A stretch of 60,842 nucleotides of DNA, taken from a virus. The position numbers were made by a program, and so were the translations under genes. Location: positions 1-60,842 of IMG/VR virus record IMGVR_UViG_3300002835_000194, one strand, 5' to 3'. The notes below the pieces were generated by a model that did no database searches, was not told the DNA's origin, and worked only from the letters and a program-made list of their open reading frames with translations. This document shows positions 1-40,954 of the stretch, in pieces; the first letter of the stretch is position 1, and each line of letters starts with the position of its first letter.

Positions 1-1416
1 AGAGAAAAAGCGACCAAAGCAAAAGAAGGTGGAATCCCTGACAAATATGAAATTGTATTTCCTACTGATGCCAGCGACAAAGTAGGATTAGAACCAACAC
101 AAAATATCACTATTGACAAAGCATCTGCCCCACCGACGATTATTAGCGAACAAAATATAGGATCTAAATCTCAAGAGCCTTCAAATTATGGCTTCGGGCC
201 GTTAGGGGACAGTAAAAACTCAATGGGATTTCAACCTACGTCTGGCGGCAATTATGTTAGTAAATTAGAAGGCGATGTTCGAGACGAAAAGACCGGATTA
301 GTGCAACGAAACAAAATGACCATTGATCCTAAGATCCGAGAATTTAGATTTGCTCAAGGACAAACACTAACAGAAATCATAACCCAATGCGTGTTGAGTA
401 GTGATTATGCCAAGCGTGCCATAGATGCAAAATATCTTGATGAAACAGGACACATTAATTGGTTTAGGATAGATGCTCAGATACAGTTGTTAGATTTTGA
501 TATTAAAAGAAATGATTATGCCAAGAGAATAATTTATAGATTAATACCATTTAAAGTACATAGTAGCATATTTAAAAGCCCTACTGCGGCTCCTCCAGGA
601 TTTCAAGAACTTCAAAAAATTATCGCCAAACAATACAATTACATCTATACTGGATTGAACAACGATCTATTAAAATTTGATATTGATATTGATAATATGT
701 TTTACACAGGAAGACCGATTTCTCCTCCGAGTGAAACAGCTAATAATCAAAATAGAGATCTGAATGATGCTTCTAAAGATCCTAAAAAAACAACAGAGCT
801 ACAGGAAGGTGCTGCGCCCGGAGGCGTATCTAATACCGCCGGTGCTAAACCAGTTAAGCCTGACCCCGATGCTGGCCTGCCTCCGGCTGTTGGCGGATCT
901 AATGATATATCTACCGAGCGACGAGTAGCGGATGCTTTTCAAAATGCTTTCTTAAAAAACAGCGCAGACTTAATAAATTTAAACATAGAAATATTAGGAG
1001 ATCCTTATTGGTTAGTGGATACAGGATTGGGAAATTATATCGCAGACAAAGGACCAAATAGTCAAACTAATTCTGATTTAACGATGAATTATGAAGGCAG
1101 CGATGTATATGTATACATAACTTTTAGAACACCTATAGAACCTAATTTAGGAACAACTGGACAGGGCGGTCTTTATAATTTTCCTAAAGGAGAAATAGTC
1201 AGTCCGTTCAGTGGAATCTATAAAGTCACTAAATGCGACAACAAATTCAGCGGTGGAATTTTCACACAAACTATAAGATGTATTAGAATGACAGGACAAC
1301 CTCAAGATTACGTTGGTAAAGAAAGTATTGTTAAAACACAGACTCTGTTGTACAAAGAACCAGAGACTGAGAAAAAAGATCCCACTACATTTATATATGG
1401 ATCGGAAGGTGAATAA
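1..1416 (+). CDS. Virion structural protein, probable baseplate component (5'-truncated)
   Basis: The reading frame is open from the first base of the window. The 74 codons before the first ATG at 223 contain no stop and read as ordinary protein, so the true start lies upstream and at least 471 residues are visible. The middle (roughly residues 230-310) is a low-complexity Pro/Ala/Gly/Asp linker between two folded parts. The C-terminal part has the pattern SPFSGIYKVTKCDNKFSGG followed by a beta-strand, of a kind common in tail and baseplate proteins. The stop overlaps the ATG of the gp5-like hub by one base, so the two are translationally coupled. No enzyme motif was seen. The function is inferred from position next to the hub; it could equally be called a tail or hub-associated protein. 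Confidence 0.8.
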   Translation, partial: REKATKAKEGGIPDKYEIVFPTDASDKVGLEPTQNITIDKASAPPTIISEQNIGSKSQEPSNYGFGPLGDSKNSMGFQPTSGGNYVSKLEGDVRDEKTGLVQRNKMTIDPKIREFRFAQGQTLTEIITQCVLSSDYAKRAIDAKYLDETGHINWFRIDAQIQLLDFDIKRNDYAKRIIYRLIPFKVHSSIFKSPTAAPPGFQELQKIIAKQYNYIYTGLNNDLLKFDIDIDNMFYTGRPISPPSETANNQNRDLNDASKDPKKTTELQEGAAPGGVSNTAGAKPVKPDPDAGLPPAVGGSNDISTERRVADAFQNAFLKNSADLINLNIEILGDPYWLVDTGLGNYIADKGPNSQTNSDLTMNYEGSDVYVYITFRTPIEPNLGTTGQGGLYNFPKGEIVSPFSGIYKVTKCDNKFSGGIFTQTIRCIRMTGQPQDYVGKESIVKTQTLLYKEPETEKKDPTTFIYGSEGE

Positions 1417-3683
1417 TGCCTAGAGAAACTAGACAGTCAGCTGCACCAGCAGCAAGAAAAAACATAGGCCCTGGACCTTTTTTAGCCAAGGTAGTAGGAC
1501 ATCTCGATCCTTCGTTTATGGGAGGATTGCAAGTTACTCTTTTAAGAAGAGACGGTAACTTAATAGGTGATGCTAACCAAACATATTCAGTACATTTTGC
1601 TACTCCGTTTTACGGAAGCACCGCCTACGAATTTATGGGAGCAAATAAAACCGATTTTAATGACACACAAAAATCATACGGAATGTGGTTTGTTCCTCCA
1701 GACGTTGGAGTAACTGTAATTTGTTTCTTCATTAACGGAGATCCTGCACAGGGGTATTGGATGGGTTGTATTCCTAGCAGATTCATGAACCATATGGTTC
1801 CTGCTATCGGAGCATCCACTGACGTTGAACTTACTGATGCAGATAAAGCAAGATTTAATACTACCCAACCTTTGCCTGTAGGCGAAGTTAATCGATTGGC
1901 TAATACGTTAGATACCAATATGCAAATCGATAAGGTTAAAAAACCAGTGCATCCAATAGTTGAACGATTCTTAGAACAGGGATTATTAGAAGATGATGTG
2001 AGAGGTCCTGCGCAGAGTACTCCTAGAAGAAATGTTCCTAACATGGTTTTTGGAATTTCCACTCCCGGACCATTAGATCGCAGAGACGGAGCGATAAGAA
2101 AATCTATAGGTTTAAAACAGAGCCAAACACCTAGTCCTGTTCCGGTAAGTAGATTAGGTGGCACCCAATTAGTTTTCGATGATGGAGACGACCAATTACA
2201 AAGGAAAAAACCCGCTGGGCAAGGCCCTAGAGAATATGCGGACACACTGGCAGGAGAAAAAGGAGATCCCACGATCCCTGCTAATGAATATTTTCGAGTC
2301 AGAACAAGAACTGGGCATCAGATCCTTTTACACAATACTGAAGACTTAATCTATATTGCTAATTCAAAAGGAACGACTTGGGTAGAACTTACTAGCAATG
2401 GCAAAATAGATATCTATGCTGAAGACAGTGTAAGTGTTCATACAAAAAACGATTTTAATTTTTATGCCGATAGAGATTTTAATTTAGAGTGTGGAAGGAA
2501 TGTTAATATAAAAGCCAAAGGTCGCTTTAACGGAGATTTTTTACAAAATATACATTTAAGATCTGGACTGGACATGAAGGTATTTGTAGCTGAATCGTTA
2601 GACTATAAAATTGGTACAGACACAAAATTCACCACAGGAAATAATTTTGATCTAGCTGTTGGAGGTAGTGCAAAATTAACTGCGCTAGGCACCACTGACA
2701 TATATTCTTCTTCAAGTCTTAAAGTTACCTCTGGAGCTACTATAGATGTTGGGGCATCGGGAAAAATCGTTATTTCTGGTTCTAGAGTAGATATTAATGG
2801 ACCTAAAGCTGCTACCGCTGCCCAAGCAACATCAGCAGCTACAGCCCCACCACTTAGTACCCACGACAATATTGCTACTGCGGTCGGTGATTGGGCAAAA
2901 ACAAAATATCAATCAGGAAAGATCCCTAGCATTATGAAAAGGATACCTATGCACGAACCTTGGGCACTGCACGAAAGTAATGCGCCCGAACAGGTTAATC
3001 CGCCTGCCACTGATAGAGACGACGGCGGAGATTTACCTACCGAGCATCAGTCTACTACAGCAGCCAGCCAAGTATCTGCTTCCGCTGCTCACGTAGCAGA
3101 AATTAATGATTACGATGCAGTTAAACCAGATCCAACTACTGGCAAAGCTTCATTCCCTGACAAGATCGATATCCCTCCAGGCGGTGTAAATCTAACTGCT
3201 GATTTCTTTGCCCCTAGCAAATACGGAAAACGTACAGCTGATAATCTAAATACTCTAGACCCCACAGTGAGGGTAGTATTTGCCAAAGCAATAAAAGCAT
3301 TCATACAGCAATATTTTAAAGATGGCTGGGATATGAGTGTATCAGAATGTCTTCGTCCTTTAGAAAGAAGTAAGGCACTATATGAAGCATTTAAAGCGGG
3401 TACCGGTCCTCAAGCAGCAAGTCCGGGTAATAGCTGGCACAATTACGGAGCAGCAGCAGATATCTTAATTTACAAGGATGGTAAGTGGGATTCGTTGAAT
3501 AAACTTGGTGCCTATACTGGTTTCGCCCAACAGTTTTTACGACAACAAGGTATTCATAATAATGCTGGCGCTAACGATAGCGGTCACTTTGTCCCAGTTC
3601 AAATGCCTGTGGGTGTACCGTCCGCTGTTAAAAACGGATCGATTAAAATTTCGCAAATTATGTCCGGCGAAAAGAAAGTTTAA
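1416..3683 (+). CDS. gp5: Baseplate hub / tail spike (gp5-like) with C-terminal M15-type peptidase domain
   Basis: 755 residues. The N-terminus (about 15-130) is the OB-fold of the gp5/VgrG family: AKVVGHLDPSFMGGLQVTLL, and later the glycine-rich GVTVICFFINGDPAQGYWMG. Residues about 295-465 are a run of short alternating repeats (for example NGKIDIYAEDSVSVHTKNDF) typical of the trimeric beta-helix needle. After a Pro/Ala linker the C-terminal 150 residues contain SWHNYGAAADI (His675, Asp682) and SGHF (His724). This matches the HxxGxAxD plus HF zinc-ligand signature of M15 D,D-/L,D-peptidases. T4 gp5 (575 residues) carries a lysozyme between OB fold and helix; nothing like that is visible here. 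The likely role is membrane puncture and local peptidoglycan cleavage by peptide hydrolysis rather than glycan cleavage. Confidence 0.9.
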   Translation: MPRETRQSAAPAARKNIGPGPFLAKVVGHLDPSFMGGLQVTLLRRDGNLIGDANQTYSVHFATPFYGSTAYEFMGANKTDFNDTQKSYGMWFVPPDVGVTVICFFINGDPAQGYWMGCIPSRFMNHMVPAIGASTDVELTDADKARFNTTQPLPVGEVNRLANTLDTNMQIDKVKKPVHPIVERFLEQGLLEDDVRGPAQSTPRRNVPNMVFGISTPGPLDRRDGAIRKSIGLKQSQTPSPVPVSRLGGTQLVFDDGDDQLQRKKPAGQGPREYADTLAGEKGDPTIPANEYFRVRTRTGHQILLHNTEDLIYIANSKGTTWVELTSNGKIDIYAEDSVSVHTKNDFNFYADRDFNLECGRNVNIKAKGRFNGDFLQNIHLRSGLDMKVFVAESLDYKIGTDTKFTTGNNFDLAVGGSAKLTALGTTDIYSSSSLKVTSGATIDVGASGKIVISGSRVDINGPKAATAAQATSAATAPPLSTHDNIATAVGDWAKTKYQSGKIPSIMKRIPMHEPWALHESNAPEQVNPPATDRDDGGDLPTEHQSTTAASQVSASAAHVAEINDYDAVKPDPTTGKASFPDKIDIPPGGVNLTADFFAPSKYGKRTADNLNTLDPTVRVVFAKAIKAFIQQYFKDGWDMSVSECLRPLERSKALYEAFKAGTGPQAASPGNSWHNYGAAADILIYKDGKWDSLNKLGAYTGFAQQFLRQQGIHNNAGANDSGHFVPVQMPVGVPSAVKNGSIKISQIMSGEKKV

Positions 3684-3697
3684 GAGAGAGATAAAAA

Positions 3698-4135
3698 ATG
3701 GCAAAATTATATAACAATCAAACAGTGGCCAAAAATAAGGCCAGTGTAGGGGATCAAAATACTGGTTCTTTTACCTATAAAGGATTCAGCTCTCTTGAAT
3801 CAAAACGAGGATTTAAACTATACGACATAGATTTAGTAAAACAAGATATCATTAATCACTTTTATATAAGAAAAGGCGAGAAATTAGAAAACCCAGAATT
3901 TGGTACCATAATCTGGGATATGTTGTTTGAAAATTTTACAGATGAAGTTAAACGATTAATTTCTGAAGATGTAGAAACTATTATAAATTATGACCCAAGG
4001 ATAGCTATTAATTCTATTCTAGTAGACACTACAGATCAGGGAATAAGGATAGAAGCAGATATTGTTTATATTCCTTTTAACATCAATGAAAGAATGACTT
4101 TTGAGTTTGATAAAAACAATTCTATCATTAACTGA
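3698..4135 (+). CDS. gp25: Baseplate wedge subunit gp25
   Basis: 145 residues, against 132 in T4 gp25. The gp25/GPW family core is clear: FYIRKGEKLENPEFGTIIWD, then a helix (EDVETII) and NYDPRIAINSILV, ending in amphipathic strands. Family members form the wedge core that connects sheath start to baseplate; the old label of lysozyme for this family is not supported by catalytic residues here. An AGAGAGA ribosome site lies about 7 bases before the ATG. It sits between the hub and gp6, the usual neighbourhood in T4-like marine phages. Confidence 0.92.
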   Translation: MAKLYNNQTVAKNKASVGDQNTGSFTYKGFSSLESKRGFKLYDIDLVKQDIINHFYIRKGEKLENPEFGTIIWDMLFENFTDEVKRLISEDVETIINYDPRIAINSILVDTTDQGIRIEADIVYIPFNINERMTFEFDKNNSIIN

Positions 4136-7100: not shown

Positions 7101-7611
7101 TGCTGTTTCTAAACCAGAACCTCCATCGAGTGAAAGTCTTAGAATTAGTTTTGGATCTAACCTAAATGCAATTAAGTCAATCAGTGACGAGATAATATAT
7201 CATCCTGTTAATTACAAAGTTTTATTTGGTTCAACTGCTGATACAAAGTTTCAGGCGATATTTAAAGTAGTTAAAAATGATGTACGATCGGTCAATGACA
7301 ATGATTTGAAAGTTAGAATTATAAGTGCTATTAATGAATTTTTTGATGTTAATAATTGGGATTTCGGTGATAGATTTTATCTGGGAGAATTGATAACATA
7401 CATAACAAATACTGTAGCACCGGACGTTAGTAATTTGGTCATATTACCTAAACAGTCTACACAGGTGTTTGGAAGTTTGTTTGAAATACAAAGTAGATCA
7501 GATGAAATTTTTGTCAGCGGCGCAACAGTTGATGATATAGAAATAGTATCCAGTATCAATGCAGTAGAATTAAGAGCATCGCCGAATGCAATTGTTAATA
7601 ATACAAATTAA
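4180..7611 (+). CDS. gp6: Baseplate wedge subunit gp6, enlarged
   Basis: 1143 residues, against 660 in T4 gp6. The N-terminal region contains YLRENYPEDFNDYIESSEYLA and the helix-rich LASRENFLELAEKKESVLRLARMLSYNAKRNVPAQG segment typical of marine T4-like gp6. The middle has NDQIDLIFGDGVYGNLPKGT, the FGDGxxG signature of the Baseplate_J/gp6 fold, followed by NAPALYYTQNRMITGEDY. The C-terminal part (INEFFDVNNWDFGDRFYLGEL) matches the usual end of the J-like fold. The extra length lies between about residues 480 and 960. It includes an acidic Asp-rich stretch (FSDNDDDGVIDDPDSF, residues about 825-840) that resembles a calcium-binding loop. The product forms the dimeric wedge ring of the baseplate. 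Confidence 0.9.
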   Translation: MSVTLRQTNLILNQDWKTIYQTFQNADFTSYDFENLRRVMITYLRENYPEDFNDYIESSEYLALIDAIAFIGQSLAFRIDLASRENFLELAEKKESVLRLARMLSYNAKRNVPAQGLLKFDTVSTTEDLLDSNGRNLQSQTIIWNDPTNINWLEQFILVLNSAMSDNTEFGRSQGQATIQNIPTEQYRFRTTSADVPIFTFSKTVAGRSMAFEILSTSFANSESIYEEAPVPGNQFGFVYRNDSRGAASPNTGFFALFKQGSLELADFSITAPTTNEKISVDSENVNNDDVWLFKLNSDGTPLEQWTKVSSLSGSNIAYNSAVNDVRNIFSIVTKNNDQIDLIFGDGVYGNLPKGTFRIFYRISNGLTYAITPPEMRGINVSIPYRNKQGVEHTLTVSMSLKSTVSSASAAEDVDTIRNNAPALYYTQNRMITGEDYNLAPLSASQDIIKVKAVNRTSSGVSRNFDIIDASGKYSSVNVFASDGYIYKQDIERTLTFKFSNRLEVVNFIRNSIEPIFNDTDVYNFYFSKFTKITFSDTLTEWTQLTSDINNSTGYFKNKEDGTKFKIGSYTSNTLKYAKVDSLIKFVVPASTVVGKKYVFFENKMVLVDNEAEDTDYKSYIWTKIIKAAGDGTNADRGALPNGRGPIEFNDIIPTGAIASRIIPRFVTNLSSPLENEIVNLMTNGLNFGLRYDQIESAWKIISAANLNTLSEFSLGKAGDTTSSSLDASWIMSFVKEGSTYIITIRGLDYIFGSRSQNRFYLDTNQKTFDSTTGKTIKDKVVVLSINTDSTGITSLKRDIDLEVSDTIRYDDGYQAPDQIKIKFSDNDDDGVIDDPDSFEAIAGENSDNFLFFKEVVDESGNQVFQFIDTTEESILVRSNEANENPDDYDVGQLVYFSSSSENVVKRVVSTSSNSRIWQVEPSYIGVVGVDHLKFQYIHNANVDRRIDPSASNIIDVYLLTRSYDTDFRNYLAGAVSKPEPPSSESLRISFGSNLNAIKSISDEIIYHPVNYKVLFGSTADTKFQAIFKVVKNDVRSVNDNDLKVRIISAINEFFDVNNWDFGDRFYLGELITYITNTVAPDVSNLVILPKQSTQVFGSLFEIQSRSDEIFVSGATVDDIEIVSSINAVELRASPNAIVNNTN

Positions 7612-7622
7612 GGTAGAATTTA

Positions 7623-10600
7623 ATGAGTAAAAATGTTTTTCCCGATAGCCAGTTACCTATCAGAAGATCTGTAGAACTTTTACCGACGGTATTTCAAACC
7701 GACTCGAATGCAAAGTTTTTAGGTGCAGTTTTAGATCCTCTAATTCAGCCAGGAACTTTACAAAAAACAGTGGGTTACGTAGGCAGAAGGTTTGGAAAAA
7801 CTTATAACGGTAAGGACATATATTTAGACAGTGATCAAACTCTAAGATCTAGATATCAGCTAGAACCGGGCGTAGTCATAAGAAAAAATTCTACTATTGA
7901 GAAATTTTACGATTATATTGATTTAAAAAATCAAATCAAGTTTTTTAATAACAATGTTGAGAAAGATAATTTAATTACTGAATCAGATCATTATTCTTGG
8001 AACCCTCCGATCGACTGGGACAAGTTTATAAATTACAGAGAATATTACTGGGTACCAAGTGGCCCTCCTAGTTTAAAGATACTAGGACAATCTCAAAATA
8101 TTGTTAGTACATACAAAGTAAAACAAGGATTAGGTGAAAATTGGGTATTTACACCTGACGGCTTGACAAATAATCCAACCATCGCTCTATATAGGGGCCA
8201 AACCTACAATTTTAATGTTTCCTTGCCCGGCGAAGGATTTTCTATAAGAACTAATTATGATACCGGTTCATTAATTTACAATCCCACGCTTTCATACAAT
8301 GCTAATCAATTAGCTGTATATGATGGAAAACTTTGGAAGGCTAAAACTTTTATATCTCCTGCTGACGGTAGCAGTATAACTTTTGAATCTCAAGATTGGG
8401 AATACATAGAAGATGTATCAAACGACAGTATATTTGATTACAATGATGGAGTTACCAATAACAATACAGAAATAGGCACAGTTACATTTACTGTACCCCT
8501 TAATGCTCCGGATGTTTTGTTCTATCAAAGCACAGTTCACCCTAACAGATTCGGAAGATTTATAATATCAAATGCAGATACCGCAACAAAAATTAATGTT
8601 ACTAAAGAAATAATAGGTAAAAAAACCTACAAAAGCAGTAACGGAATTGAATTTTCCAATGGCATGGTTGTTGAATTTATCGGACAAGTTGTGCCTGAAA
8701 AATATTCAAGAGACACATGGTTAGTTGAGGGAGTAGGGTCAGCTATTACTTTGACAAAGTTTACTGATTTAATAGTACCGGTATTGTCGACCAAAGTTCC
8801 TGAAGTTCTTTTTGATAATTCCGGATTTGATGCAGATCCTTTTGATGATGCCAGCGAATATCCAGGAGATAAAGATTATATTACTATTAATCGATCTAGT
8901 CCTGACCTTAATCCGTGGAGCAGATATAACAGATGGTTTCACAGATCAGTATTAGACTATTCTCACAAAGCTAACGGATCTGATTTTGATTCAGTGGAAA
9001 CATTTAGAGCTAAAAGACCGATTATTGAGTTTCACGCAGGATTGCAATTAATTAATCATGGTAAAATAGCAAAACAAACAGTAGATTACATTGATACATT
9101 TACTGATGATATTTTTTCAAAAATCGAAGGCAGCAAAGGTTACAACATCGATGGTGAAGACCTTTTCGAAGGAGCTCGAATTTTAGTCATTGCTGACAAA
9201 GATTCTCTAGCTAACAATAAAATTTATAAAGTTGAATTTATTCAACACCCAGATCCACTAACAGGACAAAGAAGAAAACAAATTAGTCTAAGAGAAACCG
9301 AAGATACGATTTCTAATTTCGGAGAATCGATTCTTGTAAGTCGCGGTACCGAAAATAAAGGAAAAATGTTCTTTTATAACGGAACTGCTTGGAAGAGTTG
9401 TCAAGATAAAATTTCTGTTCAGCAGGCTCCGTTATTTGATATCTTCAATGAAAATGAAGAAAGTCTTTCTGATCAAACAGTCTACGAAACTTCGTCTTTC
9501 ACAGGATCGAAAATTTTAAGTTATGCAGCAGGAAACGGCCCAACTGATACAGAATTGGGATTTTCTATTTCTTATTTGAATATCAATAATGTGGGAGATA
9601 TAGAATTTGATTTCAATTGGGATCTGGAAAATTTCTCATACTATATTCAAAGAGAAAAATTTACAAAAAATATTAATACCGGATTTTTAAGAAATAATTT
9701 AACCGGAGAATATCATAACTGTTGGATAAAAACTGATAAAGATATTTTACAACCAATTATTGATAGTAAAGTTGTCGAAGAAAATTCAAACAACATTACC
9801 TTTAACACAGTAAACTGGTCTGATCTAGATACCAAAAATTACAAAATAATTTTTTATATAAACGGAAAAAAAGTTTCTAAAGATAAGGTTAACACATCTT
9901 CTGGAATTTCTAATAACGGTAAATTTGTTTTTGTAGACACATTAAATCAAAATGATGTTGTAAGTTTAAAATTATACAGTAATATAGTTCCGGAAGAAGG
10001 ATACTATGAAATTCCTATAGGTCTAGAAAAAAATCCGTTAAATCAAGATCTTAAAAAATTTACATTGGGGCAGGCAGTTGATCATTTATCAACAGCCATA
10101 GAAGTAGATGAAAGAGTAGTTGGAGATTATCCCGGAGCAAATAATTTAAGAGATCTAAATGATTTTCAAAACAAAGCAAGAAGATTTGTTAAACACTCGG
10201 GAATCGCACCTTTATCTATAGCACTATTATGCGATAAAAAACTTAATCTTATTAAATCTATAGAATATTGTCAGCAATCTTATTCGGAATTTAAAAATAA
10301 ATTTATTGAATTCATATCCGATAATGTTTATAATGATGATCCTGCCGAATTCGTAGATCAGATAATTTCTGATATGGGTAGAACTAAGACGTCAAATAGT
10401 CCGTTCGTAGAATCGGATATGATAGGATCGGGCGCATATACAGAAATTAGATATACAGTAGATGATCCTGGTATAAAAACCTACACACTGTCAACACCTT
10501 TTGATTTAGAAACTGCTAGTAGAAAGGCAGTGTATGTGTACATAAATGGTCAACAAAAAGTTGTAGAGAAAGATTATTATTTTAATAAATCTTTTTCTTT

Positions 10601-13600
10601 TGTTACAATAAAAGTAGATCTTCAAGAAAACGACTTAATACAAATAAGAGAATATAATTCTACAAGTTATAATTTTGTTCCTGCAACGCCTACAAGTCTT
10701 GGACTCTATAAAAAATATCTTCCAAGAAAATTTTTAGATAACACATATGTTGACCCAGTATATGTTATCCAGGGTCACGATGGTAGCATCACTCGAGCAT
10801 ACAACGATTATAGAGATGATGTTATTTTAGAACTTGAATTGAGAATTTATAATAATATAAAAGTTCGATACGATGCTTCTTTGTTTGATATTGATTTAGC
10901 TTTTTCTAGTTACTATGGCGGCGGAGTTTTCACTAAAGATGAATTAGATCCTTTATTGATACAAGATTTTCTAAAATGGGTATCGGGTACTAATATTGAT
11001 TATACCAATAATAATTACTTTGATTCAGAAAATAGTTTTACATATACCTATAGTAACATGGCCGATAAGCAAGGTAAACAATCGTTACCGGGCTATTGGA
11101 GAGGTGTTTACAATTGGTTCTATGATTCTTATAGACCTCATGTATGTCCTTGGGAACTTCTAGGATTCACAGAACAACCAGACTGGTGGGAATCCCAGTA
11201 CGGAGCGGCCCCGTATACCAACGGTAATTTACTGTTGTGGGAGGATTTAGAAAATGGTGTTATTAGACAAGGCACTAGACAAGGAATATACGATAGATAC
11301 AAAAGACCAGGTTTAACCAAGCAGATACCAGTAGATAATAACGGAAATTTACTAAGTCCCTTAGATTCTTCCTTGGCCAGTAATTTTGCTTTAATCAATA
11401 ATCAGGGACCGTTTGTTCTTGGCGACGTAGGCCCGGTCGAATATGCCTGGAGATCTAGTTCCGAATTTCCGTTTTCTGTAGTAAAGGCTCTGTGCTTACT
11501 AAGACCTTTTGAATATATTAACACTTCTTTAGATTTTACAAGAGTTAAGAAAAATAAGATCGATCAATATGTTCACTCGAGCACAGATACTTTTGTAAAA
11601 TTAGAAAACGTTGTTGTGCCTACAGTAGGGGAAGATCAGGCCTACGGTCTTATTTCCATATTAATGGATTACGTAAGAAGCCTTGCATTAACTGATTCTG
11701 CGCTTCAAGAAATAATTGACAATATCGATGTAAACCTTAGTACAAGATTATCAGGATTCGTTGACAAGGCACAACAAAAATATTTGTTAGATAGTAAATC
11801 TCCTAGCTCGACGTCGAGCAGTATTTTTATTCCTCAAGAAAATTACGAAATTATTTTTAATACAAGCACTCCTATCTTCACACTATCTTATAGCGGTGTG
11901 TTAGTAGAAAAAGTAAATCGTGGTTGGAAAATTACAGGCTACGATAATCAGTTTCCTTATTTTAACTATTACGAAGTTTTAAATTCTAACAACGATCCTA
12001 CGTTATCAGTAGGAGGTGTTAGTGAAGATGTTCTTCGATGGGAACAAGAAAAATTTTATGGAAATGGTGTCTGCATAAGTTATCAAAACAATTTTTATCG
12101 ATCGATAAAAAGTTTTAGAAGTGGCTTAGATTTTAGTAACGAGAATTTAAAACAGATAGCCGGCCCTGCTACAGTAGGATCAATAACAGCATTATACAGA
12201 AGAAATTTTAATCGATTACGCAAAAAAACACTTACCTACGGAACAATTTTACCTACTATACAGGCTGTAGTTGATTTTCTGTTCGGTTACGGCGAATTCT
12301 TAAAATCCATCGGTTTTGTTTTTGACGCATATGATAAAGAAAATAAAACAGCACAAGATTGGGTTACATCTTCCAAAGAGTTTATGTTCTGGACAAAGCA
12401 TAATTGGGAAGAAGGTGCTATTTTAAGTTTGAGTCCTTCTGCTGCTAAGATTGATATAAATTTAGATTTAGGAGTAGCAGACAGTCTTTTTGATAGTTTC
12501 TATCCTTATCAAATTTTGCGAGCCGACGGCAAAGTCTTGCAACCTTCTTTTATCGATATCAAGAGAGATTTTCAGAATATCACTGTTTCTACAAATAATA
12601 CCACTGACGGAATTTATTTTTTAAAAGCTTATTTTGTTCTTAAAGAACACGTAACTATTTTTTCTGACCGAACAGTATTCAATGATGTAATTTATGACAA
12701 GCCAACTGGCTATAGACAAGAAAGAATAAAATCTAGAGGATTCCGAACGATTGATTGGGACGGCGACTACACTAGTCCCGGATTCCTATTTGACAATGTT
12801 AATATTGAATCTTGGCAACCTTTTGTCGATTATCGATTAGGCGATATTGTTGCTTATAAATCTTTTAATTGGACCAGTAAAGAAAATCAACGAGGTTCTG
12901 AGCTGTTTGATGACAGTAAGTGGACGAAATTAGATTCGACACCTCAGAAACAGTTGGTTTCGAATTTTGATTACAGGATTAACCTATTTGAAGATTATTA
13001 TAATCTTGACGGAGAAGGTCTAGGAACAGCACAAAGAGAATTAGGTCGTCATTCGATTGGTTACCAATCTAGAAATTATTTACAAAATATATCAGAAGAC
13101 GAGATTACACAATTCCAGTTGTATCAAGGATTTATTAGAGAAAAAGGCACAGCTAATTCTATAACTAAAATTTTTGATAAGCTCAGTAAAACAGACGAGG
13201 ATAGTATAGAGCTGTATGAAGAGTGGGCTATCAGAACTGGAAGATTCGGCGGAATCAATGAGTTGTTAGAAACCGAAATAAGAATTAATAAAATAAATTT
13301 TGAACTAAATCCTCAGCCTATTCTAATAGTCGACGAACAAATTAGTGATGTAAAAATAGATCAAAAGTATAGAATAAATTCCAATGATATAATAAAATCT
13401 GTTGACGGAGTTTTTACCACTAATATTAATCCTACAAAATATTACGAATTAAATTCTCGAATTTCGGGTTATGTTAGATCTGATCAAGTTGATTTTATTG
13501 TTAAAGATAAAACAGAAATTTTAGATCTGGATATAAATCTTGTTAAAGAAAATAATTATATATGGATTACCTACGATAATCAAAGCTGGAATGTCTTACG

Positions 13601-16600
13601 TTTTGAGAATCAACCCTTGCTTATTATTGAATCTGTAACAGAATTAATTGATCTTGAAGTTGAAATAAGATTTAATAGAGTCCACGAGATACAAGAAAAT
13701 GATGTAGTAGGATTAAGGAATATAATCGATTTAGAAGGATTTTTCTTTGTAAAATCGACGACGGCTAGAACTATAATAGTTGAGAAACGAGAAGATGCCG
13801 ATGCACCCGCTATAGACGACAGCGCAATACAAACAATTAATTTGTTAGTCCCTGCTAGAATCGATAGTTACAACACCTTAGATCTTGCCGAAGTCGCTGC
13901 GCTGAAAAAAGATACTAAGCTATGGATCGATTCGGATCAAAATAATCGATGGGAAGTAATTCAGAAACAAAAATCGTATTCATATAAAAATCTAATAGAA
14001 TACGGTGTTCAAGAACCAGTCGGTAGCGGTACATCGGTACTGTATATTAACAGTTTGAAACAGATAATCAGTAGTATGCCTAGTACTGGCTATCTCTATT
14101 CTTATGTAGAGACAGGTAGAGGTTTAGAGCTTTATCAGGTAATTCCCCCACCTAGCGAATTTAGAAGTCAGTTATCTCGAGTATTTGGATCGGCAGTAGC
14201 AGCGACCCCAGATGGTCAATTTTTGATTGTAGGTTCTCCTAATGCTAGCTACATTAAGAGTAAGTTTATGGGAGAATTTGATCCACGAGCAGATTATTTC
14301 GCTAGCGAAATAGTAATATACAACGGTAAATTATGGAAGGCAGTAAATGATGTTCCAGGAAATCCGTCTGCTCCAACTATCGAACAGATAAAAAATGGAG
14401 AAGTACCGGTAGATTCTTCTTATATAGATATCTATTCCGTTGACTGGGAACCTGTAACAATCGTTGAGGCTAATTCAACCGGTAGATTACCAGGATACAA
14501 TAACCAAGGAATGGTTACAATTTATAAATTTGAATCTAATAGATGGGTTGAATTTATATCAATAGTAAGTCCTAGACCTTCTGCTGATGAATTATTTGGA
14601 AGTGCAATCTCTGTAGGACAGAACGGAGACAAGTATTACCTAGCTGTTTCTGCGCCCGGAGCTTTAGAAAGCAGAGGTAGAGTTTATCTTTATCTGTACG
14701 ATAACGACACAGTACAAGAAGTTGATAGTGCTTCGATTGTTACTGGAGGATCCGGATATTCAGTATATGAAGTAGCAGATGTTGAAATAATTTCTTCTGG
14801 ATCTAATTATAATACAGATTCGGCAGGACTGGTTTTAACTATAAATTATTTAGGACAAACAGCAACATTTACAGCCACAGTTGATACTGAAACAACAGTA
14901 CCGGGAGAAAACGATTTATTATTTCCAATTAAGACAGTTACTCCTCTTGATAGGGGGCTTTGGAATGTATTACCGACCGCACCTTTAATTGCTGTTTCAG
15001 AACCTACATTTAGTTCAGATGGCTCTACCTTAAGTGGTGGATGTGTTTTAAGATTAACCTTTAGAGAAGTAAACGTTGGATCATCAGTACTAACAGTAAA
15101 TTATGAAGGTCAAATAGCCACGTTCTCTGCTGCAATCTCTGCAGGAGAAGTAATCTCAGTAGAACCGATTGTTAGAGGAAGATTTACCACAATTAGAACA
15201 GCCCCAGTAGCGACTTCGGTTGAACCTTCATACGGGTCAGGAGCTACTTTATCGATTGTATACAGAGAAAAAATAACCAAAGGTTGGAGACATTTAGAAG
15301 ACTCAAACTACAGCGGAATTTTTAATCCATTCGGAGGTTATAATCCGTATACCGGGTCGTTCGATACATCTGCCGCTGTAAGATTTTATCCTGCTGGAAG
15401 TGTTATATGGTGGGATAATAAGTTATGGAAGGCCCTTGTTGACACAAATTTAAGCGACGACGGAAGTTCTTTTTATCTAGGATTAAGTGATTGGATTGAG
15501 CTAGATCCTATTTCCACCCAATGCTCTCTACCGACAAATGTAGCTCTTGGCGACGACGGATCTACTTTAGCAGCAGGATTATTGGATAAAAATCAGATAG
15601 CAGAATTAGTTAAAGCAGGAGATCTGTTTGGATCTAGCCTAGCTATGAACAAAGATGGCAGTATTCTAGTTGTAGGTTCTCCTAACAGCGACGGGCAGTT
15701 TTTTGTAAATTATAGGGGAGTATGGAGTCAGTTTCAGGAATACACAGAATCGGATGTAGTACAGTATGACGGCAACTATTATAGGCTCATGGATACTTCA
15801 ACCCCTGGACCGGTCGATTCTTCTATAGTCAGTAAAGGAGATATTCCTGTTCCTGGGATAACAGAATTGACGTTATCAGATTCGACACCCTGGCTACCTG
15901 TAGGAAATCTCAGCACAGTTAGTTCTGGAAAAATTCACATTTATAAAAAAGATAGCAACGATGTTTATAATTTAATACAGGTTGTTACTTCTGAAAATAT
16001 AGATAGTTATAATAACACAGATTCGGGATTAGATATAGGAATTTATTCTGGAGACAAGTTTGGATTTAGTTTAGATCTAGATCAAACTGGATCTACTTTG
16101 GTTGTTTCTAGTCCGGATGCAGATACTAATTTGCAAAATCAAGGTTCTGTATATGTGTTTACAACTACAGATTTAGATTCTCCTATATACAATCTTGAAC
16201 AGAAAATTTCTAGCTACGAATCTTATAACAATGAACAATTTGGTTTTTCTGTAAGTGTTGATTATAACTCCGAGAAAATTGTTGTAGGTGCAAAAAACGC
16301 TCCTTATAAAATTCCTGTGAGATTTGACATTTCTGCAGGAACAACTTTTGATGGAAATGCTACTAGTTTCAGCGAACCTCAAGGATATACTGGTCAGGTG
16401 TATGTGTTCGAAAAGAAATCTAATATCTATTTGTTAGCAGAAAAATTAGAAGCTGATTTACAAAATGCTGAATCTTTTGGATATAGCATCGATACTTTTG
16501 GCTCAGTCATAGTCACTGGATCTCCTAATTATAGAGCACCTCTTGAAACAGAGGCCCAGGCGTTAAGTTCACATCCGATAGGAATAACAAGATTATTCAA

Positions 16601-19600
16601 GAAAGATTCTAATGTTAATTCCTGGAATACGTTGGCTCAGCAAACACAGAAAGTAGACATTGATTTAATTACCTCGATAGAAGTCTATGACGAAGTTACT
16701 AATCTTAAGCTGGCCGATGTTGATATAATAGATCATGCAAAGTTGAAAATTTTAGGAATAGCTGAACAAGAGATTAGTTACAAAACTGTATATGATCCTG
16801 CAGTCTATACTAACGGAACAGATGAACAAGTAGTAGATGAAACTACTGCCTGGTTTGAAAAAAATGTAGGCAAGCTATGGTGGAATCTATCTACAGTAAA
16901 ATGGATAGATTACGAACAAGGCGACGATGTTTATAGATCTGGAAACTGGAACGGATTAGCTTTCGGGTCATCCATTGACATCTATGAATGGGTAGAATCG
17001 TCGCTGTTGCCTTCGGATTGGAGCATACTTGCTGATACAAATGAGGGACTGGCCGAAGGAATATCTGGACAGCCATTATATTCAGATAATACAGTGTACA
17101 GTGTAAAAGAAATATACAATGTAAACACAGGTCAATTAACCGGAACTAGATATTATTTCTGGGTTAAAAATAAAGCAATATTACCAACAAACACTGTAGG
17201 AAGAAGATTGCCTTCTTCGGACGTGGCATCGCTTATAATTAATCCTGCTTCTTCTGGTTTACCGATAATAGCTTTATTAGATTCTAATAAATTCTTGGCT
17301 TACAATTTTAATTCTTTATTAGAAAATGATACTGCTTATTTGAATATACAGTATAAGAAAAACAAAAAATCAAATAATTTAAGTCATAATGAATATTTGT
17401 TATTGTCTGAAAATTTAATAGGTAGTATTCCTAACCAAGACATTGAAACTAAATGGATAGATAGCTTGGTTGGTTTCGACCAAGCAGGTAACTCAGTTCC
17501 AGATCCTAAAATACCTGAAAAGCAAAGATACGGAATATCTTTCAGACCAAGACAAGGTATGTTCGAAGACAATAATAAAATATTAGGTATTTTAATTGAT
17601 AGAATAAACGAGCATTTATTATTAAGACCTTTTGCAGATACTTTAAATTACGAAAATTTAAACTTAGTCGATCCTAAACCAGAACAAAGTTCAAATGAGT
17701 TCGATGATGAAGTAGATAATTTTATCGATTTACAAAATATTAATACTGTTAGACTCAAACAGGCAGTATTAACTGTGAATATAGTTGATGCAGAAATTGA
17801 TACAATTGATATTGTAGATCCTGGATTCGGTTACAAAATACCTCCTCCTATAGAAATAGAAGGTGACGGATCAGGAGCCAAGGCCGAATTAATCATCGAT
17901 AACCAAGGAAGGGTATCATCGGTAACCGTAATCGCTAAAGGAAAAAAATATACTTCAGCAATAGCTAAAGTAAGAAGTTATGCAGTGTTGGTAAATGTAG
18001 ATGAAACAGCTAACGATTTCTGGAGTGTTTATTCTTATGACACTGTGAGAAAAGATTTTTTCAGAAGTAAGTCGCAGGGTTTTGATACGACAAAGTATTG
18101 GTTGAAGATTGACTGGTATGCGACAGGCTACTCTAAAACTTCCAGGATCAGTAAAGAAGTAGGATCTCTCTATGAAGAAAGCTCATTAGCTATACAAGAA
18201 GGAGATCTATTAAAAGTTAAAGAATTTGGATCCGGTGGTTGGGCATTACTTAATAAAGTAAAAGAAGGTGCTGGAGATGTTCTCAACAACTATGAATTGG
18301 TCGGTCGACAAAACGGAACGATTCAGTTATCTACAAAATTGTATAGTAAGAGTTCTCAAATACTAGGCTTTGATGCAACTAGCTCTTACGATACCAGTGA
18401 GTATGATTTATTGCCGTCATTAGAATTAAGAAATATCTTAAATGCAGTTAAGCAAGATATTTTTATAGAAGATCTAAGAAACGAATGGAATAATTTATTT
18501 TTAATTTCTTTAAGATATGCTTTCTCAGAACAAGAATATATTGATTGGGCATTTAAAACAAGTTTCTTAAATGCAACACATAATGTTGGCTCTTTAGAAC
18601 AGAAAATAAATTATAAGAATGATAATCTTGACAGCTTCAGAAGTTATGTAGAAGAAGTTAAACCTTATCGAACCACAATAAGACAATATAAGAGTAGGTA
18701 CACAGGATTAGAAATAACAAATTCTGTAATCAGTGATTTTGATTTACCTCCAGCGTACTCTAGCGCCAGCGGAAAAATTTTACCGATTAATAGTTCTTTT
18801 GATCTAACAGATCAGTATCCTTGGAAAAATTGGAAAGATAATTTAGGATTTGAAATAAAAGAAATCTTAGTTTCTAATAGCGGAGATGGATACACCTCTG
18901 CGCCAACGGTATTAATAGAAGGCGATGGTTCGGGTGCAGAAGCGATAGCTTTTATAACTAATAAAAAACTAAGATCTATTAAATTAATATCCGGAGGAAC
19001 AGGATATACAAAAGCACCTACCGTATCGTTAGTCGGTGGAAACGGATTCAATTCTAACGTAGCTAAGGCAGTGGCAATTTTAGGAGAGTCACCGATTCGA
19101 ACTTTCGACGTCAAATTAAAATTTGATAGAATAAGCAAAACTGGAACTTTATCGGAATTTAATTTTTCACAATCATTTACAGCTAGTGCATCGTCCGCTG
19201 TATTTGACTTAAAATATGCGCCTAGCAAAGATAGAAGTAAGATTTCAGTCACACGAAATGAACAGATTGTTTTCAACAATGAATATGAAATTATCTACTA
19301 TACTTCAACAGTTGACACATATTCCTTAACTAAGGCAAAAATAAAGTTTTTAATTCAACTCGAGCAGGGAGACTTAATAACTGTTGCCTATGAGAAATTT
19401 AACGAAATTTACGATAGCGTTGATAGAATAAATTCTTATTATAATCCTGTCGAGGGAATGAAAGGCAAAGTAGTGAGTCAATTAATGACTGGTATCGACT
19501 ACGGCGGTATTCAAATTCAAGGCACAACTTTTGATGTTAGCGGCGGCTGGGATGCGTTGCCTTGGTTTACTGATGCCTGGGATAGTGTTGAATCAAATAA

Positions 19601-36955: not shown

Positions 36956-38375
36956 TAGAAATATTAAAGGCAATGAATTAAGAAAGATTGATGGAAAATA
37001 TCAATCAAGGTATCTTCTTGATGCAGAATATGTACATCAAGAATTGAACAAAATTAGTAATAGTTTTTGTTTAGCCAAATGGTTTAATGTTAGTATACAT
37101 ATTCCTACAGGACGCACTCACAGTTGTTATCATCCTAGAAGTCACGCTATTCCTCTTGAAGAGATTAAAATTGATGTAAGTGCATTACATAATACAAAAT
37201 ATAAAAAAGGCCAACGACAATTAATGTTAAGTGGCACTAGACCTAAAGAATGCGAATTTTGTTGGCAAATAGAAGACAGCGGCTCTCAACTCAGTGATCG
37301 AGCATATAGAAGTAAAGATGTTTGGGAACCCGGCCTCATCGATGAAGCACTAATTGTCAGCGCAGAAGGAAATGCAAATCCTAGATATGTTGAGGTAAAT
37401 TTTAATCAGGCCTGTAATTTTAAATGTAGTTATTGCAGTGCTCATTTAAGTACTGCATGGTTTGACGAAGTTAAAAAGCACGGCCCTTATAAATTATCTG
37501 ATAGAATCCATAACGATATAAGATGGATTGAAAATGAAATGCCTATCAATAATGGTCCTGATAATCCTTACCTTTTGGCTTTTTGGGAGTGGTTACCTAA
37601 AATTTATCCTACTCTACAAACATTTCGGATGACCGGTGGCGAGCCGTTGATGGATAAAAATACTTTTAGAATGTTTGATTACGTAAAAAATAATCCTAAA
37701 AAAGATTTACATCTAAGTATTACCAGTAACTGTTGCCCTCCGGGTAATCAGTGGTCGAAATTTATGAGTAGCCTTAAAGAAATTACTGACGCCGATGCCA
37801 TTGATCATTTTATGTTGTTCTGTAGTTTAGACAGTTGGGGAAAACAGGCCGAATACATACGTAATGGAATGAATTTTGATCTACTTTATAAAAATGTATG
37901 CGATTATTTACAAAATGCAGATAAGCACAGTCTTACATTTATAATTACTTTTAATGCTTTGAGCTATACAGGTTTTTATAATTATATTGAAAATATTTTA
38001 AATTTAAGAAAACAATACAACACTAATCGTCAATTAGTGTGGTTCGATGTCCCTCAACTTATAGATCCTGATTTTTTAAATCCTAAATTGATTCCTGAAT
38101 TGGTTACAGAGTTAGAACGTACAATAGAGTTTATGAAAAATAATCCGGAAACTAGATGGAATGAATTTAAAGGATTCAGTGATTTTGAAATCAGCAAAGT
38201 CCAAAGATTAATTGACTGGATAAAGTCGGATACAGGATTTAATAAAAATTTAGCAATGGAAAATTTTTATATGTTCTTTAGTCAACACGATGAACGTAGA
38301 AATACAGATTTTTTAGAAACATTTCCAGAATTAGAAAAATTTTATAACGAATGCAAAGGAATTAACAGTGTCTAA
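36945..38375 (+). CDS. Radical SAM protein with N-terminal twitch module, copy 1
   Basis: 476 residues from the ATG at 36945, which overlaps the previous stop. The radical SAM cluster motif is CNFKCSYC (Cys157, Cys161, Cys164), with FRMTGGEPLMD as the GGE motif. Before it lies a Cys-bearing module (GRTHSCYHPRSHAIPLEEIK, then RPKECEFCWQIED) that looks like the auxiliary-cluster half of a SPASM/twitch domain placed N-terminally. Families with this layout are annotated as twitch-domain radical SAM proteins; substrates are unknown. The whole N-terminal block is shared with copy 2. It begins a run of four such genes. Confidence 0.85.
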   Translation: MEYNRNIKGNELRKIDGKYQSRYLLDAEYVHQELNKISNSFCLAKWFNVSIHIPTGRTHSCYHPRSHAIPLEEIKIDVSALHNTKYKKGQRQLMLSGTRPKECEFCWQIEDSGSQLSDRAYRSKDVWEPGLIDEALIVSAEGNANPRYVEVNFNQACNFKCSYCSAHLSTAWFDEVKKHGPYKLSDRIHNDIRWIENEMPINNGPDNPYLLAFWEWLPKIYPTLQTFRMTGGEPLMDKNTFRMFDYVKNNPKKDLHLSITSNCCPPGNQWSKFMSSLKEITDADAIDHFMLFCSLDSWGKQAEYIRNGMNFDLLYKNVCDYLQNADKHSLTFIITFNALSYTGFYNYIENILNLRKQYNTNRQLVWFDVPQLIDPDFLNPKLIPELVTELERTIEFMKNNPETRWNEFKGFSDFEISKVQRLIDWIKSDTGFNKNLAMENFYMFFSQHDERRNTDFLETFPELEKFYNECKGINSV

Positions 38376-39768
38376 TAGTTATATGGATAGGGTTAGAAAA
38401 ACCAGGGATACACTAAATTCGGTGGGACCGGGATTCTGTTTAATGAAATGGAGGAACGAAACTCTGTATCTTCATATGGGTGATAACCATAGTTGTTATC
38501 ATCCGAGACCGCAGAAGATTCCACTTGAAGAAATAAAAATTGATGTTAGTGCATTACATAACACTAAGTGGAAAAAAGAACAGCGTAAAACTATGCTCGA
38601 GGGAGGCCGACCAGATGAATGTTATTACTGTTGGAACATAGAAGATCTTCCTGGAGAACATTACAGTGACAGAATGTTTCATAGCGCAAGTAAGTGGTTA
38701 GATGCCCAAAAAGAAACAGCATATATTAAATCTATTCCTTGGGATACAAATGTTAATCCTATGTTTTTAGAAGTTAGTTTTGGTAACGGTTGTAATTTTA
38801 AATGCGGTTACTGTTGCCCTCAAGCTAGCAGTTTATGGATCGACGAGATTAAAAAACACGGAAATTATGATATAAGTTACAATCAATACGGAATTGAATT
38901 TCTAGATCAAATGAAAGTCTATTCTGATGACGAACCTAACCCGTATGTCAATGCTTTCTGGGAATGGTGGCCAAATCTTAAAAATGATTTAAGAGTATTT
39001 CGAATCACTGGAGGGGAACCTCTAATGAATTCTAATACCTGGAAATTGTTAGATATGATAGATAAGGACCCTTGTCCAGACTTAGAACTTAATATGAACA
39101 GCAATCTCGGAGTCAGCAACGAAAAGATTAAAAGAATGAGTGAAACTATGAATAATTTGCTGACTACAAATAAAGTCAAATCGTTCTTTTTATATACTTC
39201 AATTGACGCCTGGGGTTCGCAAGCAGAATATATGCGCCGAGGTTTAGATGTCGAACTTTGGGAAAAGAATTTAGAAACATATTTGAATACTAATCCTAAT
39301 TTTCAAGTATCTTTTATGATTACATATAATGTTTTATCTGTAGCATATTTTCGTCCCCTATTAGAAAAAATATTAGAATTAAGGAAAAAATTTAATAAAG
39401 GACAAAATAGAATACATTTTGACACACCATATCTGAAAGAACCCCCACACTGGATGATAAACATTTTACCAAAAGAGTTTGGAAAGTTCATTGACGATGA
39501 TTTGAAATTCATAAGAGAACACATACCCAATGTGCATAATTTTAATAAGTTCAGTGAACACGAATATGAAAAATTAAAAAGGGTAAGAGATTATTTTTAC
39601 GAAGGCGGTCAAAAAATCACAGAAGAGTTAATCAAAAATGGTCGAATTGATTTTTATAAATTCTTCACAGAATACGATAAGAGAAGTAATTTAAATTTCA
39701 ACAACACATTCCCGGAGTACATAGAATTTTTAAATAACTGTAAGCAATTGTATGAATTATCAAGATAA
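38368..39768 (+). CDS. Radical SAM protein with N-terminal twitch module, copy 2 (GTG start)
   Basis: 466 residues. The GTG at 38368 follows AAAGGA with a seven-base spacer; the ATG at 38383 has no such site, so GTG is preferred. Cluster motif CNFKCGYCC (Cys142, Cys146, Cys149), GGE motif FRITGGEPLMN. The N-terminal module repeats copy 1 nearly word for word: HSCYHPRPQKIPLEEIKIDV, SALHNTKWKK, RPDECYYCWNIED. The C-terminal halves also match (FFLYTSIDAWGSQAEYMRRG versus FMLFCSLDSWGKQAEYIRNG). This indicates recent tandem duplication with the pair probably acting on related substrates or as a heteromer. Confidence 0.85.
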   Translation: MSNSYMDRVRKTRDTLNSVGPGFCLMKWRNETLYLHMGDNHSCYHPRPQKIPLEEIKIDVSALHNTKWKKEQRKTMLEGGRPDECYYCWNIEDLPGEHYSDRMFHSASKWLDAQKETAYIKSIPWDTNVNPMFLEVSFGNGCNFKCGYCCPQASSLWIDEIKKHGNYDISYNQYGIEFLDQMKVYSDDEPNPYVNAFWEWWPNLKNDLRVFRITGGEPLMNSNTWKLLDMIDKDPCPDLELNMNSNLGVSNEKIKRMSETMNNLLTTNKVKSFFLYTSIDAWGSQAEYMRRGLDVELWEKNLETYLNTNPNFQVSFMITYNVLSVAYFRPLLEKILELRKKFNKGQNRIHFDTPYLKEPPHWMINILPKEFGKFIDDDLKFIREHIPNVHNFNKFSEHEYEKLKRVRDYFYEGGQKITEELIKNGRIDFYKFFTEYDKRSNLNFNNTFPEYIEFLNNCKQLYELSR

Positions 39769-40954
39769 GCCCTATTTTTGCATCTTACCCTGGATGCATT
39801 TATATATTAATCCAAAAGGTAAATTATTACCTTGCTGTGTTGCGAATGACAAAAAACCTTTTCCGATGGTTACTGATGGTTCGTTCGAAGAAATTTATAA
39901 TTCGGAATCGATGAATAAACTGAGACAGAATATGTTAAATGATATACCGTCATCAGTATGCGAGTATTGTTATAAATTAGAAAAATACGGAAGCCATTCT
40001 CATAGAAAACACAGCAACTACAGATATTTAGAACTCTTAGAACCACAACTAAAAAATGTAGTTGACAACACCAAAGAAGACGGATCATTATCAGAAATAA
40101 ATGTTTTGTATTTTGATATACGATTTAGCAATGTCTGTAATTATAAATGTAGAATGTGCGGTCCTTTATACAGCACCAAGTGGTACGAGGATGCTGATTT
40201 ACTAGGCTGGAGAATCAAACCAACTGACAATTTTGTAAGTATTGATAATATTAAAAATTTTTGTCAGGTTAATTCTCAGTATTTAAAATCAATAAAATAT
40301 ATCTATTTTGCAGGCGGTGAGCCATTGGTTCAACAACAGCATTATGAATTTCTAGAATGGTGCATTGAAAATCAAGTCGATGCTGAGCTTTATTATCAAA
40401 GTAACGGTAGTGTTGTTAAGTATGGAAAATACGAAATTTTTGACCTGTGGAAAAAATTTAAAAAAGTCACCTTTAGTGTATCAGTTGACGGTCTAGGTTA
40501 TATGGGAGAATATATTAGATCTGGATTTAAAACAGATACAGTTGATAATAATCTTACTAAGATATGTCAGTTTATGGGTAACAATAAAGAAATAACTGTG
40601 AATTGTACATTCATGGCCTATAATGCTTTTTTCGCCACCGAATTTTTTGATGAAATGTCAACCAAAGATTGGGTATTGATTTCTAATGTATATACTCAAT
40701 TATTGATAGGTCCTGAATATTTACAACCTAAAGTATTGCCTAAAGAAATAAAGGAAGCAGCAATAGAAAAAATTAAAACTTCTAAATGGTTTAGTTTATA
40801 TCCTAAGAAGTTTGAGCAATTAATATCGAATCTTCAAGAAGATTCAAATGATATGTTATGGAAACAATTTGTAGAGTATACTAAAAAATCAGATGATCGT
40901 AGAGATCAAAATATCTTAAATTTTTTCCCCGAACTAAAAAAATATTATGACTAA
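39752..40954 (+). CDS. Radical SAM protein with N-terminal twitch module, copy 3
   Basis: 400 residues. The N-terminus FCILPWMHLYINPKGKLLPC with CC, then SVCEYCYKLEKYG, is a clear SPASM/twitch-type auxiliary-cluster pattern ahead of the core. The core cluster is CNYKCRMC (Cys129, Cys133, Cys136), with YIYFAGGEPLVQ and VTFSVSVDGLGYMGEYIRSG. It is shorter than copies 1-2 and closer to the family usual for this architecture. It overlaps both neighbours (17 and 8 bases). The substrate is unknown. Confidence 0.87.
   Translation: MNYQDKPYFCILPWMHLYINPKGKLLPCCVANDKKPFPMVTDGSFEEIYNSESMNKLRQNMLNDIPSSVCEYCYKLEKYGSHSHRKHSNYRYLELLEPQLKNVVDNTKEDGSLSEINVLYFDIRFSNVCNYKCRMCGPLYSTKWYEDADLLGWRIKPTDNFVSIDNIKNFCQVNSQYLKSIKYIYFAGGEPLVQQQHYEFLEWCIENQVDAELYYQSNGSVVKYGKYEIFDLWKKFKKVTFSVSVDGLGYMGEYIRSGFKTDTVDNNLTKICQFMGNNKEITVNCTFMAYNAFFATEFFDEMSTKDWVLISNVYTQLLIGPEYLQPKVLPKEIKEAAIEKIKTSKWFSLYPKKFEQLISNLQEDSNDMLWKQFVEYTKKSDDRRDQNILNFFPELKKYYD

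Follow-up and report, generated by a model that had tools for sequence, protein, structure and literature searches.

The hub spike protein gp5 of phage T4 carries its lysozyme between an OB domain and the needle (PMC5259590). Here, we describe a hub spike with a different layout, encoded by an open reading frame (ORF) at positions 1416-3683 (+) of an uncultivated virus, IMG/VR record IMGVR_UViG_3300002835_000194, positions 1 to 60,842; we refer to this entire 60,842-nucleotide stretch as the window. As in T4, an OB domain and a VgrG-like needle are joined in one protein encoded upstream of gp25 and gp6 genes; unlike T4 gp5, the slot between them lacks a lysozyme, a predicted M15 zinc peptidase lies beyond the needle, and PAAR (PF05488) was matched in none of 19 records, these being the window and 18 related records that may be fragments. 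The explanation that best accounts for the locus as a whole, and which we regard as probable, is a hub-borne M15 entry peptidase inherited in a needle cassette.

A peptidase on a spike is known in kind, because several described systems have one. The hubs of Pseudomonas phage pf16 and Caulobacter phage Cr30 also have an M15-type domain C-terminal to the needle, although it is of an M15_3-like subgroup, as is the Melnitz hub domain that served as query, and is joined to other hub backbones; by our reading, Cr30 further differs in that its T4 slot contains a lysozyme-like domain and PAAR is encoded by a gene of its own. The hub of PA5oct is similar over residues 8-464 (32% identity), and its spike apex bears an M15 domain, but this peptidase is M15_3-like and resides on a distantly encoded PAAR protein rather than on the hub; the PAAR-M15 protein is annotated as detected by electrospray ionization tandem mass spectrometry (ESI-MS/MS). 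In Melnitz, an OM43 phage, a gp5-type OB-M15 protein is the closest M15 relative in the phage collection (38.8%), but the hub is apparently split (L094), with the OB-M15 protein (7446-8486) having its M15 domain after the OB domain, at the T4 lysozyme position, and a needle protein (8486-10489) having an M15_3-like domain of its own. RHph_I1_18 and Vibrio 1.244.A resemble Melnitz and PA5oct in having a C-terminal M15-type domain on a needle or PAAR protein.

The A-1(L) hub protein gp15 has a C-terminal peptidase domain which lyses Anabaena when isolated (PMC10966104), but the phage has a separate central spike, and the hub also has domains named there as lysozyme and endoglucanase. VgrG2b of the type VI secretion system (T6SS) has a zinc metallopeptidase at the C-terminus of a VgrG spike (PMC6899460); it is a bacterial weapon with an immunity protein, and we liken it by architecture and not by homology. 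Literature searches found no paper on a needle cassette or an M15 hub of the lineage described here, and as far as these searches go, the M15 subgroup, its attachment to a hub with no other enzyme, and exchange of the cassette are new.

Architecture of the hub spike

The 755-amino acid (aa) product of 1416-3683, which a preliminary description of this DNA had called a hub spike, is, as judged from its sequence, a gp5/VgrG-type hub spike of a T4-superfamily phage. Residues 23-483 match phrog_13211 ('baseplate hub subunit and tail lysozyme') with E 3.6e-44, and the OB domain and needle occur in a hub gene context, with gp27-like, gp25, and gp6 neighbors; the Pfam OB and DUF2345 matches are both under the cut-off. 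By our reading of its phrog_11190 match, the upstream gene is named gp27-like, and the gene beyond the gp25-like gene codes for a gp6-type baseplate wedge (phrog_10646). The features are as follows, with approximate limits for the OB domain:

1-1416, +, gp27-like hub partner (phrog_11190, E 2.8e-16); the frame is open from base 1, and the listed ORF starts at 223
1416-3683, +, gp5-type hub spike with a predicted C-terminal M15 peptidase, 755 aa (phrog_13211 and the M15 evidence below)
1473-1820, +, OB domain, about residues 20-135 (20.7 bits to Phage_base_V over residues 86-119, cut-off 23.8; phrog_13211)
1821-2285, +, conserved non-lysozyme region, about residues 136-290, at the T4 gp5 lysozyme position (34-row hub alignment)
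2403-2915, +, needle (VgrG/gp5-like shaft), residues 330-500 (DUF2345 at 330-464, E 1.4e-4, below cut-off; phrog_13211 and phrog_430)
2421, +, inferred junction of the cassette at codon 336 (change point following residue 335)
2937-3017, +, tip motif, residues 508-534, KRIPMHEPWALHESNAPE...TDR (34-row hub alignment)
3021-3182, +, predicted flexible linker, residues 536-589
3183-3620, +, predicted M15 zinc-peptidase domain, residues 590-735 (AlphaFold2 [AF2], Foldseek, VIA, and profile alignment)
3698-4135, +, gp25-like baseplate wedge, the downstream flank of the cassette (PF04965, E 1.8e-7)

The slot that holds the lysozyme in T4 had been read as a short linker, and this does not hold: it is a stretch of ~150 residues (~136-290) that is conserved in a 34-row hub alignment, with H179, D193, R196, R204, R205, and P208 among its invariant positions. 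The accompanying claim that the hub has no lysozyme is borne out, with no Pfam or PHROG lysozyme-domain match in the hub and none to the phage lysozyme family PF00959 (0/19 records, possibly fragments). The arrangement proper to T4 gp5, with lysozyme between OB domain and needle, is thus not that of this hub.

Beyond the needle is a tip motif of the form R-I/V-P-M-H-E-P-W..HE, in which R509, P511, H513, E514, P515, W516, H519, E520, P524, T532, D533, and R534 are invariant in the same alignment. The PMHEPW..HE segment is perhaps metal-binding, and its two invariant histidines, H513 and H519, point to an apex that may bind metal, as some other spike tips do. A search with the motif alone against 50,697 phage records gave no match at E ≤ 1. 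A linker follows, with a predicted local distance difference test score (pLDDT) below 50 over residues 536-583 and 585-589 in the AF2 model, and its rate of nonsynonymous substitution (dN) is the highest of four hub regions in comparisons of the window with L003 and L004. The peptidase had been placed at the C-terminus past the needle, and fold and profile agree with this, but it does not follow the needle directly, as the tip motif and linker lie between them. We infer that the spike is a homotrimer with three copies of the M15 domain.

The M15 domain and its predicted active site

We aligned the C-terminal domain of the window with those of 27 viral-contig relatives (alignment A2; 28 rows chosen by hand and near the 28 of 76 candidates that remain at 93% identity). 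A search of the PDB with this profile retrieves LysB4 (5e-19) and Ply500 (2e-18) with E-values about 11 orders of magnitude better than that of YodJ, which is also retrieved, as are DacB, ChiX, LysECD7, and others; PHROG endolysin families match the domain as well (phrog_465, E 1.8e-7). The preliminary description had offered structure prediction as a check, and the AF2 domain model supports it, with a pLDDT of 92.1 and a predicted template modeling score (pTM) of 0.87. All 17 Foldseek matches at E ≤ 0.001 are M15-type enzymes by title, and the best VIA match is Ply500 (Z 12.9 over 137 residues, 2.9 Å), with LysB4 (Z 11.3), ChiX (10.8), VanYB (9.2), LysECD7 (9.2), and the T5 endolysin (7.1) further down; VanX (Z 8.2) and hedgehog folds (Z 7 or below) match too, as expected for the fold group. 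Because the PHROG, profile, AF2, and VIA matches all point the same way, the assignment is far beyond chance, and on these alignments and models we class the domain as an M15 peptidase and probably an L-Ala-D-Glu endopeptidase.

H675 and D682 lie within NSWHNYGAAADI and H724 within NDSGHFVP, all three where they had been placed. In the profile alignment, the His and Asp of HNYG.A.D and the D..HF segment coincide with those of Ply500 and LysB4, and the conserved positions are as follows:

3354-3356, +, Arg647, invariant in 28/28 M15 rows (A2 alignment)
3438-3440, +, His675, predicted Zn ligand, invariant in 28/28 and aligned to HNYGVAVD of Ply500
3459-3461, +, Asp682, predicted Zn ligand, invariant in 28/28
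3576-3578, +, Asp721, predicted catalytic acid, D in 27/28 and E in 1/28 (by eye), paired in the profile alignment with the D of FKDYPHF (Ply500 and LysB4)
3585-3587, +, His724, predicted Zn ligand, invariant in 28/28

The domain thus combines a LAS-type fold with H-x6-D plus a distal His, and an acid three residues before the last His. The preliminary description was to be refuted if His675, Asp682, and His724 did not come together in the fold; as judged from the Ply500/LysB4 profile alignment and the fold match, they probably do.

An M15_3 identity, as in pf16, Cr30, and PA5oct, was considered and rejected, because PF08291 has no match on the window or the 18 related records (0/19). Since these records may be fragments, the absence of lysozyme, PAAR, and M15_3 families from them is weak evidence. 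A scan of bacterial genome contigs with the M15-subtype alignment A1 gave 43 pattern matches, none of which was confirmed as a relative. Locus L093 was also rejected as an M15 relative, being a chance match in an ORF unlike an M15 enzyme.

A predicted role in entry

In the explanation that we prefer, three M15 zinc endopeptidase copies would be tethered beyond the needle tip of the trimeric spike, replacing the lysozyme behind the needle, and would most likely cut the L-Ala-D-Glu bond of the peptidoglycan stem peptide. Acting in the periplasm during tail contraction, they would open the wall locally so that the tail tube can cross it at entry. The geometry makes it likely that the peptidase enters first, a change in the order of entry that the preliminary description had raised.

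Several points weigh against this explanation. Single-sequence Pfam matches are low, with VanY at E 0.0013 (19 bits, where the cut-off of 25 is a curated threshold and not a biochemical criterion) and M15_4 at E 0.065 (14.3 bits, cut-off 25), and NCBIfam identification from the single sequence is likewise weak. The AF2 model of the full-length hub is poor (mean pLDDT 56.8) and does not give the geometry of needle and tip, and flexible linkers might let the three domains (~20 kDa each) bend back alongside the needle, which bears on the order of entry. Every record used is a metagenomic fragment, and the support for an entry role consists of sequence and predicted structure. For VgrG2b, the nearest mechanical analog, no peptidoglycan hydrolase activity is reported (PMC6899460). 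Finally, the three best folds exceed VanY by only 1.6 to 3.7 Z, and the T5 L-Ala-D-Glu enzyme ranks below VanY (Z 7.1), so the bond specificity is uncertain.

These last points bear on an alternative that replaces the entry endopeptidase with a carboxypeptidase-like enzyme of D,D or L,D type (VanY/LdcB), whose role would be to trim peptidoglycan or prevent its re-crosslinking. VanY is indeed the best Pfam family, and VanYB, VanXY, and LdcB are among the structural matches, with Z 7-9; against this, the three best folds are L-Ala-D-Glu-type or endolysin M15 enzymes, by at least 1.6 Z, and the profile search prefers LysB4 and Ply500 to YodJ by the large difference in E-value noted above. We therefore consider a carboxypeptidase unlikely, although of the rivals it deserves the most attention.

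Should the entry role of the hub-borne M15 domain be confirmed, it would define a tail-borne M15 peptidase family active on Gram-negative cell walls. A 2017 review lists one demonstrated virion endopeptidase for such walls, that of phage phi6 (PMC5380687), and the A-1(L) hub peptidase was reported later (PMC10966104).

Distribution of the peptidase

Among hub relatives (the best 80 of 599 confirmed viral stretches), 10/80 have an M15 domain and 67/80 stop directly after the tip motif; L005 and L016 are cut before the C-terminus, and L079 has a different extension. Several of the 10 M15 hubs are near-copies of one another, and the 75 hubs that are complete at both ends and long enough reduce to 31 at 90% identity, 3 of which have the M15 domain. 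No M15 match is present in the flanks of the enzyme-less loci, nor, using the A2 profile, elsewhere on the 14 enzyme-less records; the matches are in 5 of the 19 records, exactly those with M15 hubs. The extension in L079 (4947-6998) is long, of low complexity, and coiled-coil-like, and L220 has a similar one.

The M15 subtype is found on a variety of other proteins. In the best 80 of 123 confirmed loci from the A1 search, 17 are on this hub and 47 on a Melnitz-like OB-M15 protein, with the others on a needle protein (3, of 869 aa or a truncated copy), a gp27-like family protein (1, L127), coiled-coil-rich proteins of ~315-609 aa (4), or within a 983-aa protein (3); only two stand alone, and three are truncated fragments. 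The tally is not a census because the search patterns favor close relatives, but it shows one predicted peptidase subtype joined to several different tail proteins.

Cassette mosaicism and needle exchange

Trees of different parts of the hub disagree. With residues 1-535 or 1-330, the M15 hubs split into two separate (starred) groups, and the window and L003 fall in a group with L012, a hub that has no enzyme (100/100 with residues 1-330), whereas residues 340-535 place all six M15 hubs in one group (96/91). In the M15 domain tree, the four domains of this hub type form one group (99/96).

In a sliding comparison, the window's identities to L012 and to L006 cross at the needle start, with a change point after residue 335: L012-like sites number 75 of 86 informative sites before it and 12 of 71 after it, and 0/5000 permutations are as extreme. 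The window and L012 are 69% identical in the upstream gene, 81% in hub residues 1-335, 37% in the needle, 87% in gp25, and 83% in gp6; for L006, the values are 45% (using L007 for the upstream gene), 60%, 76%, 61%, and 77%. The L012-like backbone thus resumes downstream in gp25 and gp6. Because of this crossover and return, the needle, tip, and peptidase appear to have replaced an enzyme-less needle, or the reverse, and the needle shaft, tip motif, and M15 domain appear, from these alignments, to be one cassette that would recombine onto different hub backbones.

Similar patterns are present among enzyme-less hubs. Between L049 and L064, hub residues 1-330 agree at 98% and the needle at 46%. 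In DNA, 90-base windows across ~5.8 kb show 81-100% identity, apart from ~450 bp of needle, where the figure falls to 50-71% before rising again. L015 and L075 follow the same pattern at lower overall identity. Of 15 pairs with at least 80% identity in the hub N-terminus, 8 have needles below 60%, within a comparison of 561 non-independent pairs.

The contrast within such pairs could be due in part to fast divergence, and a second alternative is that the needle is not exchanged but simply evolves fast, the M15 domain having been gained once and lost many times. In most listed pairs, the hub N-terminus is indeed better conserved than the needle, but between the window and L006 the needle exceeds both the hub N-terminus and gp25 in identity, and in L049/L064 and L015/L075 the DNA identity drops at the needle and then recovers. 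Recombination is favored because high identity returns on both sides and because the foreign needle is common to the M15 hubs, and we judge fast evolution without exchange to be improbable.

Other hydrolases beyond the tip motif

A DNA pattern for the tip motif matched at least 80 loci, on contigs that are partly the same as in the earlier set (including those of L001 and L006) and with hubs more distant from that of the window (~33-42% identity where matched). Among the matches listed, 71/80 ORFs terminate no more than 60 aa past the motif and 9/80 run on, three of the latter being cut by the contig end. Beyond the motif are M15 domains in L198 and L206 (on the same contigs as L006 and L001), an SLT domain above the Pfam cut-off in L193, a phage tail lysozyme in L216 (PF18013, E 1.8e-27), and SLT-like segments in L221 and L236, which look alike and match phrog_4928 and phrog_196 without a Pfam match. 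The L233 segment resembles positions 346-494 of the hub-lysozyme family phrog_27932 (E 3.3e-28), that of L220 is of low complexity, and L223 also continues past the motif. The slot that holds the M15 domain in the window thus holds other predicted cell-wall hydrolases in distant relatives.

We lean slightly toward a broader reading in which the needle is a recombining cartridge, with shafts swapped between near-identical phages whose flanking sequence stays the same, and a post-tip slot taking interchangeable hydrolases that would match the entry enzyme to the host envelope. Changes in phage host range are usually explained by adsorption proteins; if the cartridge reading is correct, crossing of the outer membrane and wall would be a separate, exchangeable step under selection. 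It would also give a phage counterpart to the evolved VgrG spikes, which carry varied T6SS effectors. Near-identical phages that differ mainly in the needle (L049/L064 and L015/L075) are a natural experiment that makes the idea testable.

Selection on the domain and genes for lysis

A third alternative holds that the M15 domain has lost its activity and persists for a structural or binding role at the tip. Some spike tips are purely structural, but here conservation extends to all of the predicted catalytic positions, and substitution rates show purifying selection on the domain: dN is 0.015 and synonymous divergence (dS) 2.06 (saturated) for the window and L004, and 0.003 and 0.12 for the C-terminal 165 aa of L006 and L008, with several dS values in this analysis not computable. 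We give this alternative little credence. Least credible is a principal role in lysis, the domain being an endolysin joined to the hub by chance. Related stand-alone, endolysin-like M15 proteins in other phages (L170 and L171) can be cited for this, but most relatives of the subtype are on hub-type proteins, and lysis could proceed without the hub enzyme because the 97-kb M15-hub record G001 has separate GH19-matching, endolysin-like ORFs (332 and 291 aa, the latter below the family cut-off).

GH19-type domains are also encoded in two records with enzyme-less hubs, in a 964-aa ORF of G013 and a 1524-aa ORF of G007 (loci L172 and L179). By our reading, these ORFs resemble tape measures, and we considered whether a tape-measure GH19 might stand in for the enzyme that such hubs lack; the M15-hub records yielded no tape measure for comparison.

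Other genes in the window

A single ORF of 4868 aa (7623-22229) lies 3′ of the gp6-like wedge gene. Three radical S-adenosylmethionine (SAM) genes (38368-39768, 40947-42149, and 45301-47217) are located 3′ of tail-fiber-like genes; one has a SPASM domain and one a B12-binding domain, and the first is just under the Pfam cut-off. A UDP-glucose/GDP-mannose dehydrogenase gene (48521-49732) is found with this cluster, and a GTP cyclohydrolase I gene is at 58223-59059 (−; PF01227, E 1.3e-38).

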